From contig CANKBS010000011.1 in the NCBI GenBank assembly GCA_947480015.1, positions 1-64,000 on the forward strand: DNA of 64,000 nucleotides. The letters are read 5' to 3'. Made by a program: the position numbers and the translations under genes. This DNA comes from Sphingobacteriaceae bacterium. Lineage in GTDB: Bacteria; Bacteroidota; Bacteroidia; B-17B0; Aurantibacillaceae. The notes beneath the pieces are model-generated. The model was not told the DNA's origin. It saw only the letters and a program-made list of their open reading frames with translations, and ran no database searches. Positions 10,497 to 19,952 of the stretch are shown here, one piece after another. Positions within the stretch are counted from its first letter, which is position 1. Each line of letters begins with the position of its first letter.

Positions 10497-10504
10497 TTAA
10501 ACAA
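10497..10504. promoter_or_regulatory. Single TTAAACAA box upstream of the CarH-like gene
   Basis: Matches the half-site repeated in the crtD-crtI and crtB control regions. It lies 39 bases before the regulator start and could serve autoregulation. Alone it is weak evidence, because several single copies exist elsewhere in the window by chance. Confidence 0.3.
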
Positions 10505-10542: not shown

Positions 10543-11427
10543 ATGGCATCCAAATACACCATAAAAGATCTTGAACGGATTTCGGGCATAAAAGCCCATA
10601 CCTTGCGTATTTGGGAACAGCGTTATGAAATTTTAAACCCAGAGCGCAGTTCAACCAACATCCGCTATTATAATGATTCTGACCTTAAGCGCATTTTAAA
10701 TGTCTCTTTTTTAAATAATAATGGCTATAAGATTTCAAACATTGCAAAACTTAATGATAAAAGCCTACTTGAAGAAGTTGGTAATTTCTTTAATAGTTAC
10801 CGGAAAGAAAGTGATCAGATAGAGAACCTGGTACGTTGTTTAATGGACATGGATGAAGAGCGTTTTGAAAATACGATCACCAATTCCATCGAACATTTTG
10901 GATTTGAAAGCACCATCGAAAACATTATTTTTCCTTTTTTCCGTCATTTAGGAAACATGTGGCAATTGGGCGTTGTTACGCCCGCACAAGAACATTACAT
11001 TTCTAATTTAATACGACAAAAATTAATAGTTGGTATCGATCAATTAAAACCTGACATCAATCCGGCAGCAAAAACCTATTTGTTTTTCTTGCCAAATCTC
11101 GAATTGCATGAAATGGGTTTATTGTACGCCCATTATTTGGTAAAATCACGTGGGCACAAATGTTTGTATTTGGGGCAAAGTGTGCCGCTTGACGATTTGG
11201 CCAATATTACCGAAACGGTTAAACCCGACATTCTGGTTTCTCTTATCACGGCCAGTATGCAGGACACCAGTTTAAATGAGTTTATTCAACGCTGTGATGA
11301 AAAAATACCCGGTCCTGAATTTTTGCTAAGCGGCAGATTAGTGCTTTCGGTTGAAGAGAACTTAAAACTTCCTTCAAGCCGGTTTAAAACCTTTGCCGAT
11401 TTTGAATCCTTCAAAAAAATGATTTAA
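10543..11427 (+). CDS. CarH/LitR-like MerR regulator with B12-binding domain
   Basis: Likely a cobalamin-based light sensor that represses carotenoid genes in the dark. The MerR winged-helix domain (about 4-72) begins YTIKDLERISGIKAHTLRIW. It is followed by a helical cap (about 90-170) holding the CarH signature W-x9-EH: W140, E150, H151. A Rossmann-like B12 domain (about 175-290) carries the lower-ligand motif ExHxxG (E187, H189, G192). In Thermus CarH the residue after that Trp is a His that binds cobalt after illumination; here it is Gln141. The carotenoid cluster starts 2.4 kb downstream. A TTAAACAA half-box at 10497 lies ahead of this gene and matches boxes in the crt control regions. 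Light sensing is inferred from the motifs. Confidence 0.85.
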   Translation: MASKYTIKDLERISGIKAHTLRIWEQRYEILNPERSSTNIRYYNDSDLKRILNVSFLNNNGYKISNIAKLNDKSLLEEVGNFFNSYRKESDQIENLVRCLMDMDEERFENTITNSIEHFGFESTIENIIFPFFRHLGNMWQLGVVTPAQEHYISNLIRQKLIVGIDQLKPDINPAAKTYLFFLPNLELHEMGLLYAHYLVKSRGHKCLYLGQSVPLDDLANITETVKPDILVSLITASMQDTSLNEFIQRCDEKIPGPEFLLSGRLVLSVEENLKLPSSRFKTFADFESFKKMI

Positions 11428-12949: not shown

Positions 12950-13797
12950 TGGGTTTTATGAAAAAAATTGGAATAATTGCGGGTGCTGTATTTACAGCCT
13001 TGTTAGTGCTTAACGCCTGTAACAACGATAAAACAGAAAAAACCAGCAAAAACTACCAAGCGCCTAAGCCTGAAAAAGTGACCCCCATAATTAATTACAC
13101 AGTCATCGCAAAACACCCACACGATAGAACACTATATACCGAAGGGTTTTTATTTGAAAAACAACAGTTGTTTGAAAGCACCGGTGCCCCTGAGCATTTA
13201 CCACAAACCTTTTCAGCCTTTGGTACTGTTGACCTTAAAACCGGCAAGTTTGATAAAAAAGTGGAAATTGATAAAAAAGTTTATTTTGGCGAAGGAATTC
13301 TGTTTTTAAAAAATAAAATTTATCAGCTTACCTATCAAAACCAGGTGGGTTTTATTTATGATCCAAAAACATATAATAGTTTGGGGCAATTTGGTTTCAC
13401 TAATAAAGAAGGTTGGGGAATGACTACCGAAGGAGAGCATTTAATTTTTAGTGACGGCACGTGCAATTTAACTTATATGGAGCCCGATAACTTTAAAGTG
13501 GTTAAAACCTTAGCAGTTGTTGAAAACGGTTATGGTTTATACAACCTTAATGAGCTGGAATACATTAAGGGCTATATTTATGCCAATGTTTGGATGACAA
13601 ATCGTATAGTTAAGATAGATCCCAAAACCGGCGAAGTGGTAGGGGAATTAAATCTTGACGCGCTCAACACTGAAACAAAAACGGAAGATCCTAACATTGG
13701 TGAAATGAATGGAATTGCTTACGATTCCATTTCCGATAAAATTCTCATCACAGGTAAATTGTGGCCAAAAATTTATGAGATACAATTTGCCCACTAA
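12949..13797 (+). CDS. Glutaminyl-peptide cyclotransferase (glutamine cyclotransferase) lipoprotein
   Basis: Converts N-terminal glutamine of peptides to pyroglutamate, probably in the periplasm. A lipoprotein signal ends at ALLVLNACNN (lipid cysteine near residue 24). The rest resembles the five-bladed beta-propeller cyclase found in plants and bacteria: PHDRTLYTEGFLF, FGEGILFLKNKIYQLTYQ, KEGWGMTTEG, ISDGT-like FSDGTCNLTYM, LNELEYIKGYIYANVW, and a closing MNGIAYD......LITGKLWPKIYE. The ATG at 12958 is an alternative start. Its end overlaps the convergent crtY stop by four bases. Confidence 0.87.
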   Translation: MGFMKKIGIIAGAVFTALLVLNACNNDKTEKTSKNYQAPKPEKVTPIINYTVIAKHPHDRTLYTEGFLFEKQQLFESTGAPEHLPQTFSAFGTVDLKTGKFDKKVEIDKKVYFGEGILFLKNKIYQLTYQNQVGFIYDPKTYNSLGQFGFTNKEGWGMTTEGEHLIFSDGTCNLTYMEPDNFKVVKTLAVVENGYGLYNLNELEYIKGYIYANVWMTNRIVKIDPKTGEVVGELNLDALNTETKTEDPNIGEMNGIAYDSISDKILITGKLWPKIYEIQFAH

Positions 13798-14942
13798 ATT
13801 AATTTGCGAATGGCCGAAGCCGCAAAAGCACCTATTGGCACCGACCGCATAATTTTCAAATCTTGTTTAATGTTGGATTCTTCATTCAAAAATGCCAGCA
13901 GGTGTTGAAGGTCGTTCTTTTGAAAAAGTGCTGTAAATACTTTTTTGGCCGGTACTGTTTTCTTATTCAACACATCCAATAAAATTTTATCGTAAATTAA
14001 AAAACGTTTTTCGCGTACTGGCATTTTAAATTGTTTCGATCCGTTTTTTAGCTGTTGGATGATGGCTTCGGTATGTTTCTGAATAAAATAAAATGTATAA
14101 CCCGTGCTGGGCTTACTATTGCCCCCGGCTGTACCAATATTGATGACGCGGTCACCATAGGGGTTCGTAAAGTCACCCTCGGTCATCGGTATTTCACCTT
14201 GTTCTGATTCAAGTAGTTTGTAGGAGGCCAGTTTTAAATTACTTGTAAGATACGTGTCGAGCGCCTCATTGTAGGCTGTCGTGCTGATGGCCCGGTTAGA
14301 AAAACCCGTGTACTCAACCAATGCTATTGTTTTTGAAAAGGGAATGACATAAACAAAACGACAATCGTTCTGTTGCTCGGGACTAAAATCCATAAAAACC
14401 GGACAAGCCTCATCAAACACAGGTTCCGGACTTTCTATGAGCCAGCCTTTAAAATGCTGAACATAATTGACCTGATTTTTTTTGACTGAAAGTTTACGGA
14501 AAGCACTGTTAAAAACATATTGCGCTTTGTAAGATTGCGTTGACGTGTTTAATACTGCCCACTCAGATTCTGATTTAAGTGCAAGAATTTCGTCCGTAAT
14601 AAATTCGAATCGCGCATCCTTTTTTAATTCAGTCAAACAGTACTCATAAAAGTCTAGTCCGCGAACCATTACATAGGCGTATGGTTCCAGATCGAAACGT
14701 TTTTCAAAGCCATCTGATTTGAATGAAAAATGCCGCCACTTTTTAAATACGATGGCATCAAACCAATTGGTTTTCTTTTTCGTCCAGAAACACCAAGTGC
14801 GGTCGTTTTTGTTTTTTAAGTCTTTGTCTAATAATAGCACCCGATTAAAAGCCACCCCAGATTCTTTTAACTGCATGGCCAATGACAGGCCTGCGCAGCC
14901 CATGCCGGCAATAATATATTCGTATGTGAGATCTTCTTTCAA
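13794..14942 (-). CDS. crtY: Lycopene cyclase, CrtY/CrtL type
   Basis: Cyclises one or both ends of lycopene to beta-rings. The 382-residue flavoprotein begins with a dinucleotide-binding fold, YIIAGMGCAGLSLAMQL. The cyclase motif follows in DRTWCFW (near residue 48), and then GTAGGNSKPSTGYTFYFIQ near residue 270, which is diagnostic for bacterial lycopene cyclases. It is the last gene of the minus-strand carotenoid operon, 15 bases after crtZ. With CruF and CrtD in the same operon, it probably acts as a monocyclase giving gamma-carotene intermediates, but that is an inference from context. Confidence 0.92.
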   Translation of the reverse strand: MKEDLTYEYIIAGMGCAGLSLAMQLKESGVAFNRVLLLDKDLKNKNDRTWCFWTKKKTNWFDAIVFKKWRHFSFKSDGFEKRFDLEPYAYVMVRGLDFYEYCLTELKKDARFEFITDEILALKSESEWAVLNTSTQSYKAQYVFNSAFRKLSVKKNQVNYVQHFKGWLIESPEPVFDEACPVFMDFSPEQQNDCRFVYVIPFSKTIALVEYTGFSNRAISTTAYNEALDTYLTSNLKLASYKLLESEQGEIPMTEGDFTNPYGDRVINIGTAGGNSKPSTGYTFYFIQKHTEAIIQQLKNGSKQFKMPVREKRFLIYDKILLDVLNKKTVPAKKVFTALFQKNDLQHLLAFLNEESNIKQDLKIMRSVPIGAFAASAIRKLI

Positions 14943-14957
14943 AAATGAGGGAATACC

Positions 14958-15434
14958 TTAATGTGATTTGGCCTGAAGTTTTTTGGCTTCGCTAAAATAT
15001 TTAGGATGAATAAATAACATACCAAAACTTTCTCCGTCATATTTACCAATGCGTTTGTGATGCATTTTATGGGCACGTCGCAAAGCCAACACATATAAGT
15101 TGTTTGATTTACTTAAGAATTTAAAACGTTGGTGAATGATCACATCATGCACTAAAAAGTAAGCAAAACCATACAAGGCAATCCCAAAACCAACCCAGGT
15201 ATACCAGGTATAGCCATTCATCATGCCAAACATAATGCATAACCAGCTTGGGATAGCATACATTAAAAAGAAAAGATCATTGCGTTCAAAAACAGAGTTA
15301 TGATCTTTTTTATGATGATCGGCATGAAAATACCACATGCCGCCATGCATAATAAACTTATGATTGGCCCAGGCCGAAAATTCGGTGAGAATAAAGGTGA
15401 GAAGCACGATGCCAAGATTAATAAGTGTTTGCAT
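14958..15434 (-). CDS. crtZ: Beta-carotene hydroxylase, CrtZ type
   Basis: A membrane non-haem di-iron enzyme that adds 3-hydroxyl groups to beta-rings. The 158 residues contain the histidine boxes HKFIMHG, FHADHHKKDH, HDVIIHQR and HKMHHK. There are four hydrophobic segments. The start overlaps the stop of the preceding cruF-like gene by one base, so the two are likely coupled. In the predicted pathway it hydroxylates the single beta-ring. Confidence 0.93.
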   Translation of the reverse strand: MQTLINLGIVLLTFILTEFSAWANHKFIMHGGMWYFHADHHKKDHNSVFERNDLFFLMYAIPSWLCIMFGMMNGYTWYTWVGFGIALYGFAYFLVHDVIIHQRFKFLSKSNNLYVLALRRAHKMHHKRIGKYDGESFGMLFIHPKYFSEAKKLQAKSH

Positions 15435-16075
15435 TAGTTTTGAAAATTAAAATTAGTAAATAGAAAAAGAAGTCCGAAAAAGAAAAACTGTAAAACCAAA
15501 ATAATGAGTGCGGTGTTTTTATGGCCTTTCAGTAATGTTTTGTAAAAGGTAAATCCAATGAGTGAAGAAATTACAAACCAGGCCATATAGTTTTGTAAGC
15601 CGGCATCACCGCTTTTAAAATACCAGAAATCGAGCTGAGGCGCTATTCGTTCGATGAGAATGTCTAATATCGTTACAAAAGCCGCTGCGGCAAGAATTCT
15701 TTGCCATTTGGTTTCAAAAAACTTAGCGCTCATTACTAGCGAACTACTAATTAGCAAGGCCCAGTTAATAGAAATGGTAAGCGGTACGCCCATTATTTTA
15801 TAGCCAAGGGCTTCGCCATATGAATAGTTGCCAAACACAAAACCAGTTTGAACACCCATCACTTCTATTAAAAAGCCGCTTAAGGCAATGCTGAAAAAAA
15901 CCATCAGATAATTAAGTGTAAAGGGCGACTGACTAAGGAGAAAAACAAAACAGGTTAACAAAAGCGTAAGCGGTGTAAAAGGCGCAAAAAAATCAGGCTT
16001 TAGTAAAAACCCTATGCCTCCCGATACATAAACGAGTATTAAAAAGTAAAGCGCGTATTTTCTTAACTGATTCAA
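15434..16075 (-). CDS. cruF: Carotenoid 1,2-hydratase, CruF-like membrane protein
   Basis: An integral membrane protein of 213 residues with about seven helices, matching the CruF/bisanhydrobacterioruberin hydratase family (DUF422). Shared family signs are the acidic patch LIEVMGVQTGFVFGNYSYG, a following VPLTISINWALLI, and a conserved DILIERIAPQLDFW. The family adds water across the psi-end of lycopene or gamma-carotene to give 1'-hydroxy carotenoids. It lies one base after crtD and overlaps crtZ by one base. The pairing with CrtD supports hydration followed by 3',4'-desaturation. Confidence 0.85.
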   Translation of the reverse strand: MNQLRKYALYFLILVYVSGGIGFLLKPDFFAPFTPLTLLLTCFVFLLSQSPFTLNYLMVFFSIALSGFLIEVMGVQTGFVFGNYSYGEALGYKIMGVPLTISINWALLISSSLVMSAKFFETKWQRILAAAAFVTILDILIERIAPQLDFWYFKSGDAGLQNYMAWFVISSLIGFTFYKTLLKGHKNTALIILVLQFFFFGLLFLFTNFNFQN

Positions 16076-16076
16076 A

Positions 16077-17543
16077 TTAATTTTTGCTTATCATGTTACT
16101 TACAATGTTGGCTCCCATTAAACAAAGCGGAATGCCGCCACCCGGATGCACACTGCCTCCCACAAAATACAAACCTTTGATTCGGCTGTTGAAATTAGCA
16201 TGGCGCAAAAATGCAGCATATTTATTGTTGCTTGAATTACCATAAAGTGACCCTCCCACTGAAGAAGTTTGCAATTCTATACCATAAGGATCAAGAATAG
16301 CTTCTTCTTCAATAAAATCTTCAATGTTGGTATTCAACACACGGTTTATTTTAGCAAACACTTGTTTACGTAAAGTGTCGGCATAACGAATTTTTTCACC
16401 GCTTTTATTATGGGGCACATTTACCATCACAAACCAGTTTTCTGAGTTTTTGGGAGCGTCGTCAGGACAGTACTTTGAAGTGATGTTAATGTAAATGGTC
16501 GGGTCAGAATAAGGTTCATCCGTTTCAAATAAACAACGAAATTCTTCCTGGTAATTTTCAGAAAATAAAATGTTGTGCAAACCAAGTTCTTTAAATTCTT
16601 TTTTTATCCCCAGAAAAAAAACATAAGCACTGCTGGATTTTTCCTGAGCCAGTAATTTTTGAGGACGGAACTCAGGGCCTAATAATTTGTTGTAAACGAC
16701 ATGCATGTCGGCATCACTTACTATATAGTTGGCCGGATAGAAAACAGCTCTGCTCCAGAGCCCTTTAATTTTTTTTCCTTCTAAGTCAATTTTTTCGACG
16801 GGCGAATCGAATTTAAATGAAACGCCAAGTTCCAAAGCAAGCGCCACTAAATGTTCGCTAATTTGATGCATGCCTTTTTTGGGAATAAAAGCACCAAAAC
16901 CAAATTCAAGATGCGGGATAATGTTTAACAAGGCTGGCGCTTTGTATGGGTTAGAGCCATTGTAGGTGGCATAACGATCAAACAACTGAACAGTTTTTTT
17001 GTTTTTAAACCGCTTAGCATTTTGTGCATGCATGTTTTTAAACAAATTTAATCGCGGCGAATGCAAAATCCCTTTAAGTGTTTTTAGATCAAAAAAGTTT
17101 TTTAAAACATGCAGAGAGCGTTTTAAAAAAATATCGGCAGTGGTGTCATAATAAAAAGCACTGGTTTTTAAATGCGCCAAAACATGCTCTTCATCCTCAT
17201 TTAATTTAAGTTTCAGTTCTCTGGCAAATTCTTTTACATCACTTTTTGCTTCAAGCCTTGTTCCATCTTCAAAAAAATAATGGGTAATGGTATCAAGTTT
17301 GGTATACTTAAAAGATAGGTTAGATTCAGCCAAAACGCTTAATTCATCAATGAGTTGAGGCATGGTTAAAAGCGAAGGTCCTTTATCAAAGCGGTACTTT
17401 CCCAAGGTCATTTCCGATAATTTTCCACCGGCATAAGTGTTTTTTTCAAATACAGTAACCAGGTGACCCGCCTTAGCCAAACGGATGGCCGTTGCCAAAC
17501 CGGCTATGCCCGAACCAATGATATGTGTGTGCGTTTTGCTCAG
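16077..17543 (-). CDS. crtD: CrtD-like 1-hydroxycarotenoid 3,4-desaturase
   Basis: A CrtI-family flavoprotein of 488 residues. Features include the FAD motif IIGSGIAGLATAIRLAKAGH, GGKLSE...YRFDKGPSLLTMPQ (the pattern seen in CrtD rather than CrtI), YATYNGSNPYKAPA, and a C-terminal YFVGGSVHPGGGIPLCLMGA. It probably adds a 3',4' double bond to the hydrated end made by CruF. The start is unusual. The nearest usual start codon (TTG at 17498) would cut off the FAD motif, and no ATG, GTG or TTG lies between it and the upstream stop at 17567. A CTG at 17543 gives the natural N-terminus (M)SKTHTHIIGSG, so that was chosen. It is the first gene of the crtD-cruF-crtZ-crtY operon. Confidence 0.85.
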   Translation of the reverse strand: MSKTHTHIIGSGIAGLATAIRLAKAGHLVTVFEKNTYAGGKLSEMTLGKYRFDKGPSLLTMPQLIDELSVLAESNLSFKYTKLDTITHYFFEDGTRLEAKSDVKEFARELKLKLNEDEEHVLAHLKTSAFYYDTTADIFLKRSLHVLKNFFDLKTLKGILHSPRLNLFKNMHAQNAKRFKNKKTVQLFDRYATYNGSNPYKAPALLNIIPHLEFGFGAFIPKKGMHQISEHLVALALELGVSFKFDSPVEKIDLEGKKIKGLWSRAVFYPANYIVSDADMHVVYNKLLGPEFRPQKLLAQEKSSSAYVFFLGIKKEFKELGLHNILFSENYQEEFRCLFETDEPYSDPTIYINITSKYCPDDAPKNSENWFVMVNVPHNKSGEKIRYADTLRKQVFAKINRVLNTNIEDFIEEEAILDPYGIELQTSSVGGSLYGNSSNNKYAAFLRHANFNSRIKGLYFVGGSVHPGGGIPLCLMGANIVSNMISKN

Positions 17544-17544
17544 T

Positions 17545-17597
17545 TTGTTTAATCTTAGTATGCTTTAAACAATTTTTAGGCTTAATTGTTTAAACAA
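17545..17597. promoter_or_regulatory. Divergent carotenoid control region with four TTGTTTAA boxes
   Basis: TTGTTTAA or its complement occurs at 17545-17552, 17565-17572, 17586-17593 and 17590-17597. The last two form a perfect 12-bp palindrome TTGTTTAAACAA. TTTAAACAATT (17564-17574) and AATTGTTTAAA (17584-17594) are also an 11-bp inverted repeat around nine bases. The region separates crtD from crtI and is the best candidate operator for the CarH-like regulator. Which protein binds is inferred. Confidence 0.65.
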
Positions 17598-17600
17598 AAC

Positions 17601-19082
17601 ATGTCACAGAACAAAAAGAATATTGCAATTATAGGTGCAGGTTACAGCGGACTCTCAGCCGCCTGTTATTTAGCAAAATGGGGTTACGAGGTAACGGTTT
17701 ATGAAAAACACGATCAAATAGGGGGCAGGTCGAGAGCTTATACAGAAGATGGATTTGTGTTTGACATGGGTCCGAGTTGGTATTGGATGCCCGATGTATT
17801 TGAGACTTTTTTCGCTGATTTTGGCAAAAAAGTAGCTGATTATTACGAATTAGTGCGATTAAGCCCTTCTTATCGGGTATTTTTTGATGATGATCAGATA
17901 GAGGTGCCGGCCACCATAGAGGAATTATATGCTTTGTTTGAAAAGTTGGAACCAGGCAGCAGTGCAAATTTGAAGCAATTTTTAAAAGAGGCCGAATACA
18001 AATACGAAGTAGGTATTAAAAACTTTGTGTACAAACCCGGCGTTAATTTGTCAGAATTGGCCGATCCTGCGCTGATAGCGGGTGTTTTTAAACTCGATGT
18101 GTTTAAACGCATGAGTAAACATGTGCGTCAGTTATTTAAGAACGAAAAACTCATCCAGATTCTCGAATTCCCGGTATTGTTTTTGGGGGCAATGCCACAA
18201 AACACCCCGGCACTATACAGTTTAATGAATTATGCCGACCTGGTGCTTGGTACCTGGTATCCAAAAGGAGGCATGCAAAAAATAGCCCAGGGCATGTATG
18301 AACTGGCCCTTGAATTGGGTGTAAAATTCGAGACCGGCGTATCCATTTCTAAAATTGTGGTCGAAAATAAATTAGCACATGCTATAGAAGCCGGCATTAA
18401 TTACAATGGTTTTAATGCGCTGATCTCTTCGGCCGATTATCATTTTACTGAACAAACCTTGTTAGAGCCACAGTACCGAAAATACTCTGAAAAGTACTGG
18501 CAGAACCGAAAGATGGCCCCCAGTTGTTTAATCTATTATGTAGGATTGAACCGAACTGTGCCGGGATTACTTCATCACAATTTGTTTTTCGATTCAGATT
18601 TTAAAAAACATGCCGAAGAGATTTATAGCAAACCCGAATGGCCCGAAAATCCGCTTTTTTATGTGTGTTGCCCGAGTAAAACCGACCCAACCGTGGCTCC
18701 GGCGGGACACGAAAACCTTTTTATTTTAATTCCGGTGGCTCCCGATCTGACAGATACGCCAGAAATCAGGGAAAAGTATTTTAAAACGGTGCTAGCGCGC
18801 ATTGCTCAAAAAACCGGGGTGGATATCTCAAAAAACCTGGTTCACTATAAAAGCTATGCACCAAGCAATTTTGTGAGCGATTACAACGCTTTTAAAGGAA
18901 ATGCCTACGGCTTGGCCAATACGCTGATGCAAACAGCCCATTTAAAGCCTTCCATACGCAGTAAAAAGGTTAAAAACCTCTTCTATACCGGGCAATTAAC
19001 GGTACCCGGACCGGGCGTTCCCCCCTCCATTATTTCGGGAAAACTGGTGGCTAAACAAATTTTAAACTATTTTCAAACTTAG
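17601..19082 (+). CDS. crtI: Phytoene desaturase
   Basis: Desaturates phytoene stepwise to lycopene. The 493 residues start with the FAD fold NIAIIGAGYSGLSAACYLA, then GGRSRAYTEDGFVFDMGPSWYWMPDVFE, which is typical of Bacteroidota CrtI. Later motifs are LGTWYPKGGMQKIAQGMYEL, PSCLIYYVGLN, and the C-terminal FYTGQLTVPGPGVPPSIISG. The frame extends five codons upstream to a TTG at 17586, but that stretch lies inside the palindromic control boxes, so the ATG at 17601 is preferred. It is followed 33 bases later by crtB. Confidence 0.95.
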   Translation: MSQNKKNIAIIGAGYSGLSAACYLAKWGYEVTVYEKHDQIGGRSRAYTEDGFVFDMGPSWYWMPDVFETFFADFGKKVADYYELVRLSPSYRVFFDDDQIEVPATIEELYALFEKLEPGSSANLKQFLKEAEYKYEVGIKNFVYKPGVNLSELADPALIAGVFKLDVFKRMSKHVRQLFKNEKLIQILEFPVLFLGAMPQNTPALYSLMNYADLVLGTWYPKGGMQKIAQGMYELALELGVKFETGVSISKIVVENKLAHAIEAGINYNGFNALISSADYHFTEQTLLEPQYRKYSEKYWQNRKMAPSCLIYYVGLNRTVPGLLHHNLFFDSDFKKHAEEIYSKPEWPENPLFYVCCPSKTDPTVAPAGHENLFILIPVAPDLTDTPEIREKYFKTVLARIAQKTGVDISKNLVHYKSYAPSNFVSDYNAFKGNAYGLANTLMQTAHLKPSIRSKKVKNLFYTGQLTVPGPGVPPSIISGKLVAKQILNYFQT

Positions 19083-19115
19083 TTGTTTAACCTTTGACTA
19101 AAAAGGTTAAACAAC
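19082..19115. promoter_or_regulatory. 14-bp perfect inverted repeat before crtB, with two TTGTTTAA boxes
   Basis: GTTGTTTAACCTTT (19082-19095) and AAAGGTTAAACAAC (19102-19115) are exact complements around six bases. Each arm holds one TTGTTTAA-type box (19083-19090, 19107-19114). The right arm ends at the base before the crtB ATG, so the repeat could act as an operator in DNA or as a hairpin that limits crtB translation in RNA. No T-run follows, which argues against a terminator. Confidence 0.7.
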
Positions 19116-19952
19116 ATGAAAAAACTATTTGACAAGGTTTCTGACAGCAGCAGCAAGTTAGTAACGCGCCAATACAGCACCTCCTTTAGCTTGGGCATCC
19201 GTTTTTTGAACAAAAGTTTCCAAAATCCAATTTATGGTATTTATGGCTTTGTAAGGCTGGCCGATGAAATTGTGGATAGTTTCCACGATTATGATAAGGC
19301 GCTTTTGCTTGAAGAATTTAAGCGCGACACCTACTTAAGCATTGAGCGTAAAATTAGTCTTAACCCAATTCTCAACAGTTTTCAAAAAGTGGTTAATGAC
19401 TTTCAAATTGAACCTGAGTTAATTGATGCTTTTTTAAAGAGCATGCAAATGGACCTGGAACAAAAAGAACATTCCCCCGAAAGCTATAAGCAATATATTT
19501 TGGGCAGTGCTGAGGTAGTCGGTCTGATGTGCTTACGCGTTTTTACAGAACAGGATTGTAAATTATTTGATGATTTAAAACCCTATGCCATGGCGCTTGG
19601 TTCAGCCTTTCAGAAAATTAATTTTCTGCGCGATATGAATGCCGATTACTTAGGCATGGGCCGGGTTTATTTTCCTAATTTAAATATGCTGGAATTAAAC
19701 GATTACACCAAATTTGAAATAGAGCAGGATATAGAACTTGATTTTATTAAGGGATTACACGGCATTAAGATGTTGCCCAAAAGATCGCGCTTAGGGGTTT
19801 ACGTAGCCTATATTTATTACCGTTCCCTCTTTAATAAGATCAAAAAATTAGAAGCGCGTCACGTTTTAGAACAACGCATCCGTATTCCGAATCCTCAAAA
19901 AATCGCATTGTTTGCCGGTTCTTATGTGCGAAACAGTTTTAATTTATTGTGA
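19116..19952 (+). CDS. crtB: Phytoene synthase
   Basis: Joins two geranylgeranyl diphosphates to phytoene, the committed step of carotenoid synthesis. The 278 residues contain SKLVTRQYSTSFSLGIRFL, the first Asp-rich motif VRLADEIVDSFHDYD, and the second in FQKINFLRDMNADYLGMGRVYFP. crtE (geranylgeranyl diphosphate synthase) is not in this window. The gene is preceded by a perfect inverted repeat and overlaps the next gene by four bases (GTGA). Confidence 0.95.
   Translation: MKKLFDKVSDSSSKLVTRQYSTSFSLGIRFLNKSFQNPIYGIYGFVRLADEIVDSFHDYDKALLLEEFKRDTYLSIERKISLNPILNSFQKVVNDFQIEPELIDAFLKSMQMDLEQKEHSPESYKQYILGSAEVVGLMCLRVFTEQDCKLFDDLKPYAMALGSAFQKINFLRDMNADYLGMGRVYFPNLNMLELNDYTKFEIEQDIELDFIKGLHGIKMLPKRSRLGVYVAYIYYRSLFNKIKKLEARHVLEQRIRIPNPQKIALFAGSYVRNSFNLL

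Follow-up and report, generated by a model that had tools for sequence, protein, structure and literature searches.

Spaced inverted TGTTTA boxes as probable operators of a CarH-like MerR-B12 regulator in Bacteroidota

CarH, as known from Thermus thermophilus and Bacillus megaterium, combines a MerR DNA-binding domain with a B12-binding four-helix cap and a Rossmann domain, the cap carrying Trp, Glu and His residues and a further histidine acting as the lower ligand. According to the accessible part of PMC9304148, the protein contacts DNA at the sequence TnnACA; there, and in that of PMC8156234, the operators are described as three to four tandem 11-bp direct repeats. The roles of Trp131, Glu141 and His177 in Thermus CarH are dealt with in the accessible part of PMC10442372, according to which His132 is needed for most of the release of the tetramer after light; the same text cites an earlier report in which the H132A protein still came apart in light.

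Two further systems bear comparison with the operator described below. The CarA-CarH operators of Myxococcus and Cystobacter resemble it in being plastic and in lying at the crt promoter, with inverted repeats in some Myxococcus, whereas they are described as 11-bp repeats with TnnACA, and the accessible part of PMC9304148 mentions neither the box nor the 24-bp spacing found here. In Pseudomonas, the class II LitR proteins PplR1 and PmlR2 use paired TGTnnA half-sites, and the light-inducible genes encode photolyase, FolE, cryptochrome-like and short-chain dehydrogenase proteins (PMC9758184, accessible part). No description of the operator itself was found in the open-licence PMC literature that was searched, and the accessible parts of PMC11796333, PMC9478572 and PMC9723704 do not describe it.

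The window, a 64-kb stretch of a 3.77-Mb source genome, contains at 10543..11427 (+ strand) the gene for a CarH/LitR-like MerR-B12 regulator. Its product has an N-terminal MerR DNA-binding domain (Pfam MerR_1, 2.9e-17) and a B12-binding four-helix cap (B12-binding_2, 1.2e-8), while no Pfam match to its Rossmann domain reached the cut-off. The W-x9-EH motif of the cap and the ExH motif of the lower ligand are both present, so that in domains, cap residues and lower-ligand histidine the protein is like the Thermus and Bacillus CarH described in the sources above. By alignment, W140, E150, H151 and H189 are the counterparts of Trp131, Glu141, His142 and His177 of Thermus CarH, and these residues of the cobalamin site are invariant among the relatives compared (38/38 and 22/22). 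Unlike the Thermus protein, however, the regulator has Gln in place of His132, and His occurs there in 0/38 and 1/22 relatives. CarH is the best-scoring NCBIfam model for the protein, yet the score of 101 bits is below the 400-bit cut-off of that equivalog. The closest solved relatives of the regulator are Thermus CarH/LitR, and its AlphaFold model (pLDDT 89.5) was compared with solved structures by Foldseek. Against DNA-bound CarH (5c8e) Z is 18.9 with 268 aligned residues and an rmsd of 12.3, and the domains are therefore taken to be set differently in the model; for the Thermus CarH B12 domain by itself Z is about 18, with some 195 residues aligned at an rmsd of 2.4-2.5. Over the structural alignment the protein is 23-24% identical to full-length Thermus CarH. 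As judged from its sequence, the regulator is a member of a divergent CarH-like group.

The carotenoid genes lie in the same window. crtI (phytoene desaturase; 17601..19082, +; CrtID equivalog above cut-off) is followed by crtB (phytoene synthase; 19116..19952, +), and crtD (1-hydroxycarotenoid 3,4-desaturase; 16077..17543, -; CrtD equivalog above cut-off) is divergent from crtI. Downstream of crtD are genes for a CruF-like carotenoid biosynthesis membrane protein (15434..16075, -), a fatty acid hydroxylase family protein (14958..15434, -), which we take to be CrtZ-like, and a lycopene cyclase family protein (13794..14942, -). In crtD there is no in-frame ATG, GTG or TTG ahead of the conserved N-terminal FAD motif, and the first listed start, TTG 17498, would truncate that motif. 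CTG 17543 or an ATA may serve instead; by eye, the same place is ATG in one relative (G005) and ATA in another (G004).

The box TTGTTTAA occurs between crtD and crtI at 17545(+), 17565(-), 17586(+) and 17590(-), at crtB at 19083(+) and 19107(-), and at 10497(-) upstream of the regulator gene. The preliminary description had reported four copies within 53 bases, two by crtB and a half-box at 10497, and all these coordinates are right. The palindrome that it had noted within the cluster is also real, the last pair forming the 12-bp TTGTTTAAACAA at 17586-17597, but its two copies overlap, and the cluster (17545..17597) therefore amounts to three independent sites and not four. The half-sites are laid out as TGTTTA-20-TAAACA-21-TGTTTA. 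An expectation of about six copies in the window, as first estimated, is correct for base composition (5.9) but not for a dinucleotide model (~12.3); 23 are present. Clustering was likewise said to be unlikely by chance, and simulation bears this out: of 300 windows generated by a Markov model, not one contained so much as three copies in a span of 53 bp. Taken by itself, the 8-mer shows no enrichment across the whole source genome (749 copies against 793 of the reversed control), which rules the box out as a general genome signal. What is unusual is the clustering of the box and not the frequency of the 8-mer.

The unit of the proposed operator is TGTTTA, arranged as inverted pairs with a 24-bp spacing, TTGTTTAA-N16-TTAAACAA, or, at crtD/crtI, as an everted pair with a 21-bp spacing; the spaced pair counts for more than the short palindrome. 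The half-site includes TGTnnA/TnnACA, and in this TnnACA-type half-site, in its crt targets and in an operator that overlaps promoter elements the system is like that of Thermus and Bacillus CarH, as far as the sources consulted describe it. In geometry it is unlike those tandem 11-bp repeats: TnnACA occurred at +11 and -11 in 1 and 0, respectively, of 246 half-sites of 24-bp pairs, although TGTTTA repeats at 11 bp are present in three genomes (G012, G033 and G038). Exactly two copies of the 32-bp operator exist in the source genome. One, at 19083..19114, takes up the space that separates the crtI stop (19082) from the crtB ATG (19116); the other is at C4:29411-29442, upstream of an extracytoplasmic function (ECF) sigma gene. 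The only perfect operators of this genome thus mark phytoene synthase and a sigma-photolyase operon. With spacers of 0-24 there are five TTGTTTAA/TTAAACAA pairs against two in the control, two of the five being in the crt cluster. The remaining close inverted pairs are at C1:162417-162437 (spacer 5), upstream of a gene with a secreted look, and at C18:26293-26328 (spacer 20).

Looser forms of the pattern are not enriched in the source genome, whether three mismatches are allowed (225 against 215), TGTTTA-N(6-20)-TAAACA is counted at any spacing (23 against 40), the pattern is everted with spacers of 12-18 (15 against 12) or the N18 pair is reduced to its 6-bp arms (2 against 5). It is therefore the relatives, and the kinds of gene targeted, that carry the case. 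For these comparisons a MerR-B12 gene was scored as present at E <1e-30. Among 42 genomes with the gene TGTTTA-N18-TAAACA was found 156 times against 58 in the control, compared with 18 against 24 in 18 genomes that lack it (Fisher p ~2e-4; p 0.04 within the genus alone). Across 295 genomes of the class, 112 contain the exact 32-bp operator, with 169 matches against 5 in the control; one copy is in G035, a genome without a MerR-B12 gene. Inverted 24-bp pairs often recur 42-44 bp away.

It could be argued that AT-rich words have clustered by chance, or that the repeats are RNA hairpins or terminators: the genome is AT-rich, the box alone is unenriched and at crtB the inverted repeat is longer and almost perfect. 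However, such clusters are missing from the simulated windows, the operator outnumbers its control so greatly across the class, and the conservation of spacing contradicts this explanation. Moreover, in 125 operators the spacer bases pair no more than expected, which rules out an RNA hairpin. The chance that either account is correct appears negligible.

The preliminary description had proposed an absence of boxes upstream of crt genes in relatives as evidence against its reading; instead, a box is present before crtI in 26 of the 27 genus genomes that have both crtI and a MerR-B12 gene (the source genome and 26 others, G023 and G031 having been left out because they have no full crtI match). 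In this set, none of the other 2080 hexamers compared is as enriched as the top-ranking TAAACA/TGTTTA over the 150 bases that precede crtI (61 against 10.4 expected; rank 1 of 2080). The exception, G019, has no box in these 150 bases, though boxes precede its sigma gene. The commonest spacings of the pairs are convergent 24 and everted 21 (11 pairs each); among everted spacings of 5-40 that of 21 stands alone, and at most eight other convergent spacings occur, each once or twice. Of the 11 relatives with this crtD-crtI cluster type, 8 have a box no more than 75 bp from crtB, not always as a pair.

Controls that have crtI and no MerR-B12 gene are few, namely four genomes (G015, G035, G044 and G057), and none of them has a box in the 150 bases before crtI. 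In three of these (G015, G035 and G057) crtI directly follows another gene and the 150 bases are coding, so that a count of zero is a weaker control there. In the 200 bases before the whole crtI-containing unit there is no box in G015 or G035 and one single box in G057, and the crtI loci of the four genomes contain no 24-bp pair. A MarR-family gene, above cut-off, precedes crtI in G015 (L090 5791-6474) and G035 (L087 5511-6164), and not in G057; in the first two an exchange of the carotenoid regulator is possible, to judge by gene order. In nine genomes of other families, most of them with a MerR-B12 gene, the box is not enriched before crtI (2 against 1.2; rank 375), nor is it in a set of named GTDB loci (2 against 4.2; rank 1699). 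This named set consists of the best 80 MerR-B12 loci that match the pattern KAHT[LI]RIW, which fixes part of the recognition region and makes invariance there uninformative. It overlaps with the genome set (e.g. L136/G031, L137/G019 and L204/G039) and includes several near relatives within Algoriphagus, and with so many related loci the counts are not independent. In addition, one genome (G032) is 60% complete and its absences are weak.

The second perfect operator of the source genome lies 37 bases before the ECF sigma gene (C4:28867-29373), whose start is taken as the Met common to relatives; the longest open reading frame extends further, across the operator. The product has Sigma70 regions 2 and 4, a DNA photolyase gene follows after 8 bases on the same strand, and the divergent neighbour encodes a class II (D/K/N) tRNA synthetase. 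At E up to 1e-20, the sigma gene was found in 37 of 41 relatives with a MerR-B12 gene and in none of 18 without one; this holds within the genus (24/28 against 0/8) and in other families (13/13 against 0/10). Boxes precede the sigma gene in all 25 genus genomes, the source included, with two or more in 24, and the photolyase gene adjoins it at 23 of these 25 loci. Boxes also precede it in all 13 genomes of other families, three of which (G038, G045 and G058) have no exact 24/25-bp pair. Among the best 80 named merR loci, 48 have a same-strand sigma match of >36% identity, and boxes are found before the sigma gene in all 48 (136 against 21.6 expected; rank 1). At 41 of these loci there are at least two boxes, and 46 pairs have a spacing of exactly 24 bp. 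The named loci span Algoriphagus, Roseivirga, Pontibacter, Rufibacter and many Bacteroidales MAGs.

So tight a link between the sigma gene and the boxes, together with the position of the sigma gene directly upstream of crtI in several families, including several of the nine other-family genomes above, would also be seen if the co-conserved ECF sigma factor recognised the boxes as promoter elements and drove its own gene and the crt genes from them. Nevertheless, four genomes with a MerR-B12 gene and no sigma match at E 1e-20 (G002, G010, G016 and G022) keep their crtI boxes, and on this ground the sigma factor was rejected as the binder. Promoters read by sigma factors have, moreover, a direction, whereas the element is an inverted repeat. 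Some of the pairs also enclose a -7 box of the housekeeping type, TAnnTTTG (the motif being taken from the accessible part of PMC9723704), of which 34 occurrences were found in 147 distinct pairs when both strands were searched, starting at offsets 4, 7-8 and 14-15 within the pairs that have one. By eye, the window's own operators contain no perfect TAnnTTTG. As far as sequence can tell, the placement of the -7 box inside the pairs is as expected of a repressor site, and a promoter read by the ECF sigma factor is a very improbable account of the boxes.

Boxes are also found at the regulator gene itself. Among genus genomes, the source included, 11 of 15 have a box within 75 bp upstream of orthologous merR, and in 8 of those 11 TAAACA is at -41 to -47; in some relatives the box adjoins, by eye, the terminator of the preceding gene. 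The copy in the window (10497..10504, -) is a half-box, and weak autoregulation of the CarH-like gene is possible. In the best 80 named loci the box ranks first upstream of merR (64 against 18.6; 44/80). It is not enriched there in the 27 named loci with crt genes close by (7 against 4.3; rank 255), in most of which cruF- or fah-like genes immediately precede merR. In G033 (L061, L100) a crtD-crtI cluster of the same type is accompanied by a merR that sits on a separate contig and belongs to the other subgroup, and the 170 bases ahead of this merR contain five boxes; the boxes are the same and the regulator subgroup is different. A further observation concerns a Chryseobacterium-labelled MAG, in which L191 (7960 and 8914) carries merR-crtI-crtB with pairs upstream of merR (25 bp) and of crtI (24 bp).

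Other boxes lie beside genes with functions in light and UV protection, and the predicted regulon takes in more than crt. Where merR adjoins crtI in genus relatives, a perfect pair separates a PTPS/GTP cyclohydrolase I/DUF2452/merR unit from one of DUF2805, SDR, flavin reductase and TspO (L299). In G030 (L289) the pair heads a unit encoding DUF2805, photolyase, TspO and DUF2071 proteins, and in G034 (L291) it lies about 400 bases before a photolyase-DUF2071 stretch. Further N18 matches (e.g. L293 and L295) have neighbours without an evident link to light. Photolyase, FolE and short-chain dehydrogenase-type genes beside the boxes recall the Pseudomonas LitR regulon, and the half-sites are paired in both. 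The Pseudomonas site is TGTACA-N12-TGTACA (18 bp), compared with TGTTTA-N18-TAAACA (24 bp) here, and PmlR2 answers to a LOV protein, whereas here the residues of the cobalamin site are kept and an ECF sigma gene is a main predicted target. Of the known systems compared, the class II LitR site, as described in the accessible part of PMC9758184, is the nearest in form and in regulon.

Co-occurrence does not point to one gene alone, and another transcription factor conserved in the same genomes might bind the boxes in place of the MerR-B12 protein; an AraC-family gene is indeed near the operator in G030, genes having been listed at few loci. The half-site, however, fits that of CarH/LitR, merR itself is often preceded by boxes, the operator is common to two merR subgroups, and LitR is known to have targets of this type, as far as the accessible sources go. 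A different binder is accordingly judged distinctly unlikely.

Two loci from Bacteroidales MAGs, L148 and L212, carry GTP cyclohydrolase I, with or without PTPS, behind merR and the ECF sigma gene, and their flanks contain no match to crtI or crtB. The module is CarH-like and belongs to a lineage in which anaerobes are numerous. Such loci would suit a MerR-B12 protein that binds the boxes and senses the level of adenosylcobalamin or redox state instead of light, at least where His132 or carotenoid genes are missing; so would the absence of His132, given its part in the release of the Thermus tetramer. Against this, photolyase and carotenoid genes recur among the targets, and the earlier report cited in PMC10442372 had the H132A protein still coming apart in light. 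This alternative, which has the same binder as the light-responsive reading and overlaps with it in probability, seems unlikely.

The boxes are thus probably operator half-sites of the CarH/LitR-type MerR-B12 regulator at 10543-11427, serving a predicted light-stress regulon: in many Bacteroidota they recur by carotenoid, DNA-repair and sigma-factor genes alongside the gene for a putative B12 light sensor, and would be that sensor's switches. In the dark, a B12-loaded oligomer would sit on inverted TTGTTTAA pairs (24 bp) or everted pairs (21 bp), covering the crtDI and crtB promoters and the ECF sigma-photolyase operon and keeping them silent; on illumination the Co-C bond would be cleaved, and the regulator would leave its operators. 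From the box, its spacing, the target genes, the co-occurrence with the regulator and the conservation of the cobalamin site, all of them observed, we infer that the regulator binds the box and represses under the control of adenosylcobalamin and light. The light-responsive operator of the preliminary description is upheld by the crt boxes, the sigma-photolyase, FolE and TspO targets and the co-occurrence with MerR-B12 genes, while its unit is the spaced pair and not the 12-bp palindrome. Comparison of genomes also supports a wider proposal, with a regulon extending beyond crt, an ECF sigma tier and a geometry unlike that of known CarH operators.

These results define a candidate operator and regulon that can be searched for wherever Bacteroidota respond to light, and the phylum gains a candidate system of light-controlled promoters. 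In Chryseobacterium lacus, carotenoids are induced by light; the accessible part of a 2020 paper (PMC7064467) reports no car/lit genes and suggests a new light regulator. With merR-crtI-crtB and boxes in the Chryseobacterium-labelled MAG, that question is directly testable. A natural group of CarH proteins without His132 would also be useful for learning how light releases CarH. More tentatively, and as a possibility that falls somewhat short of likely, Bacteroidota may own a widespread CarH branch in which a His132-free B12 photoreceptor acts at spaced inverted TGTTTA sites to give two tiers of light protection, one directly through crt, photolyase and pterin genes and the other through the ECF sigma factor, the most conserved target and one found only in genomes with a MerR-B12 gene. 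If this is true, the missing His132 ligand would imply a release chemistry unlike that of Thermus CarH.
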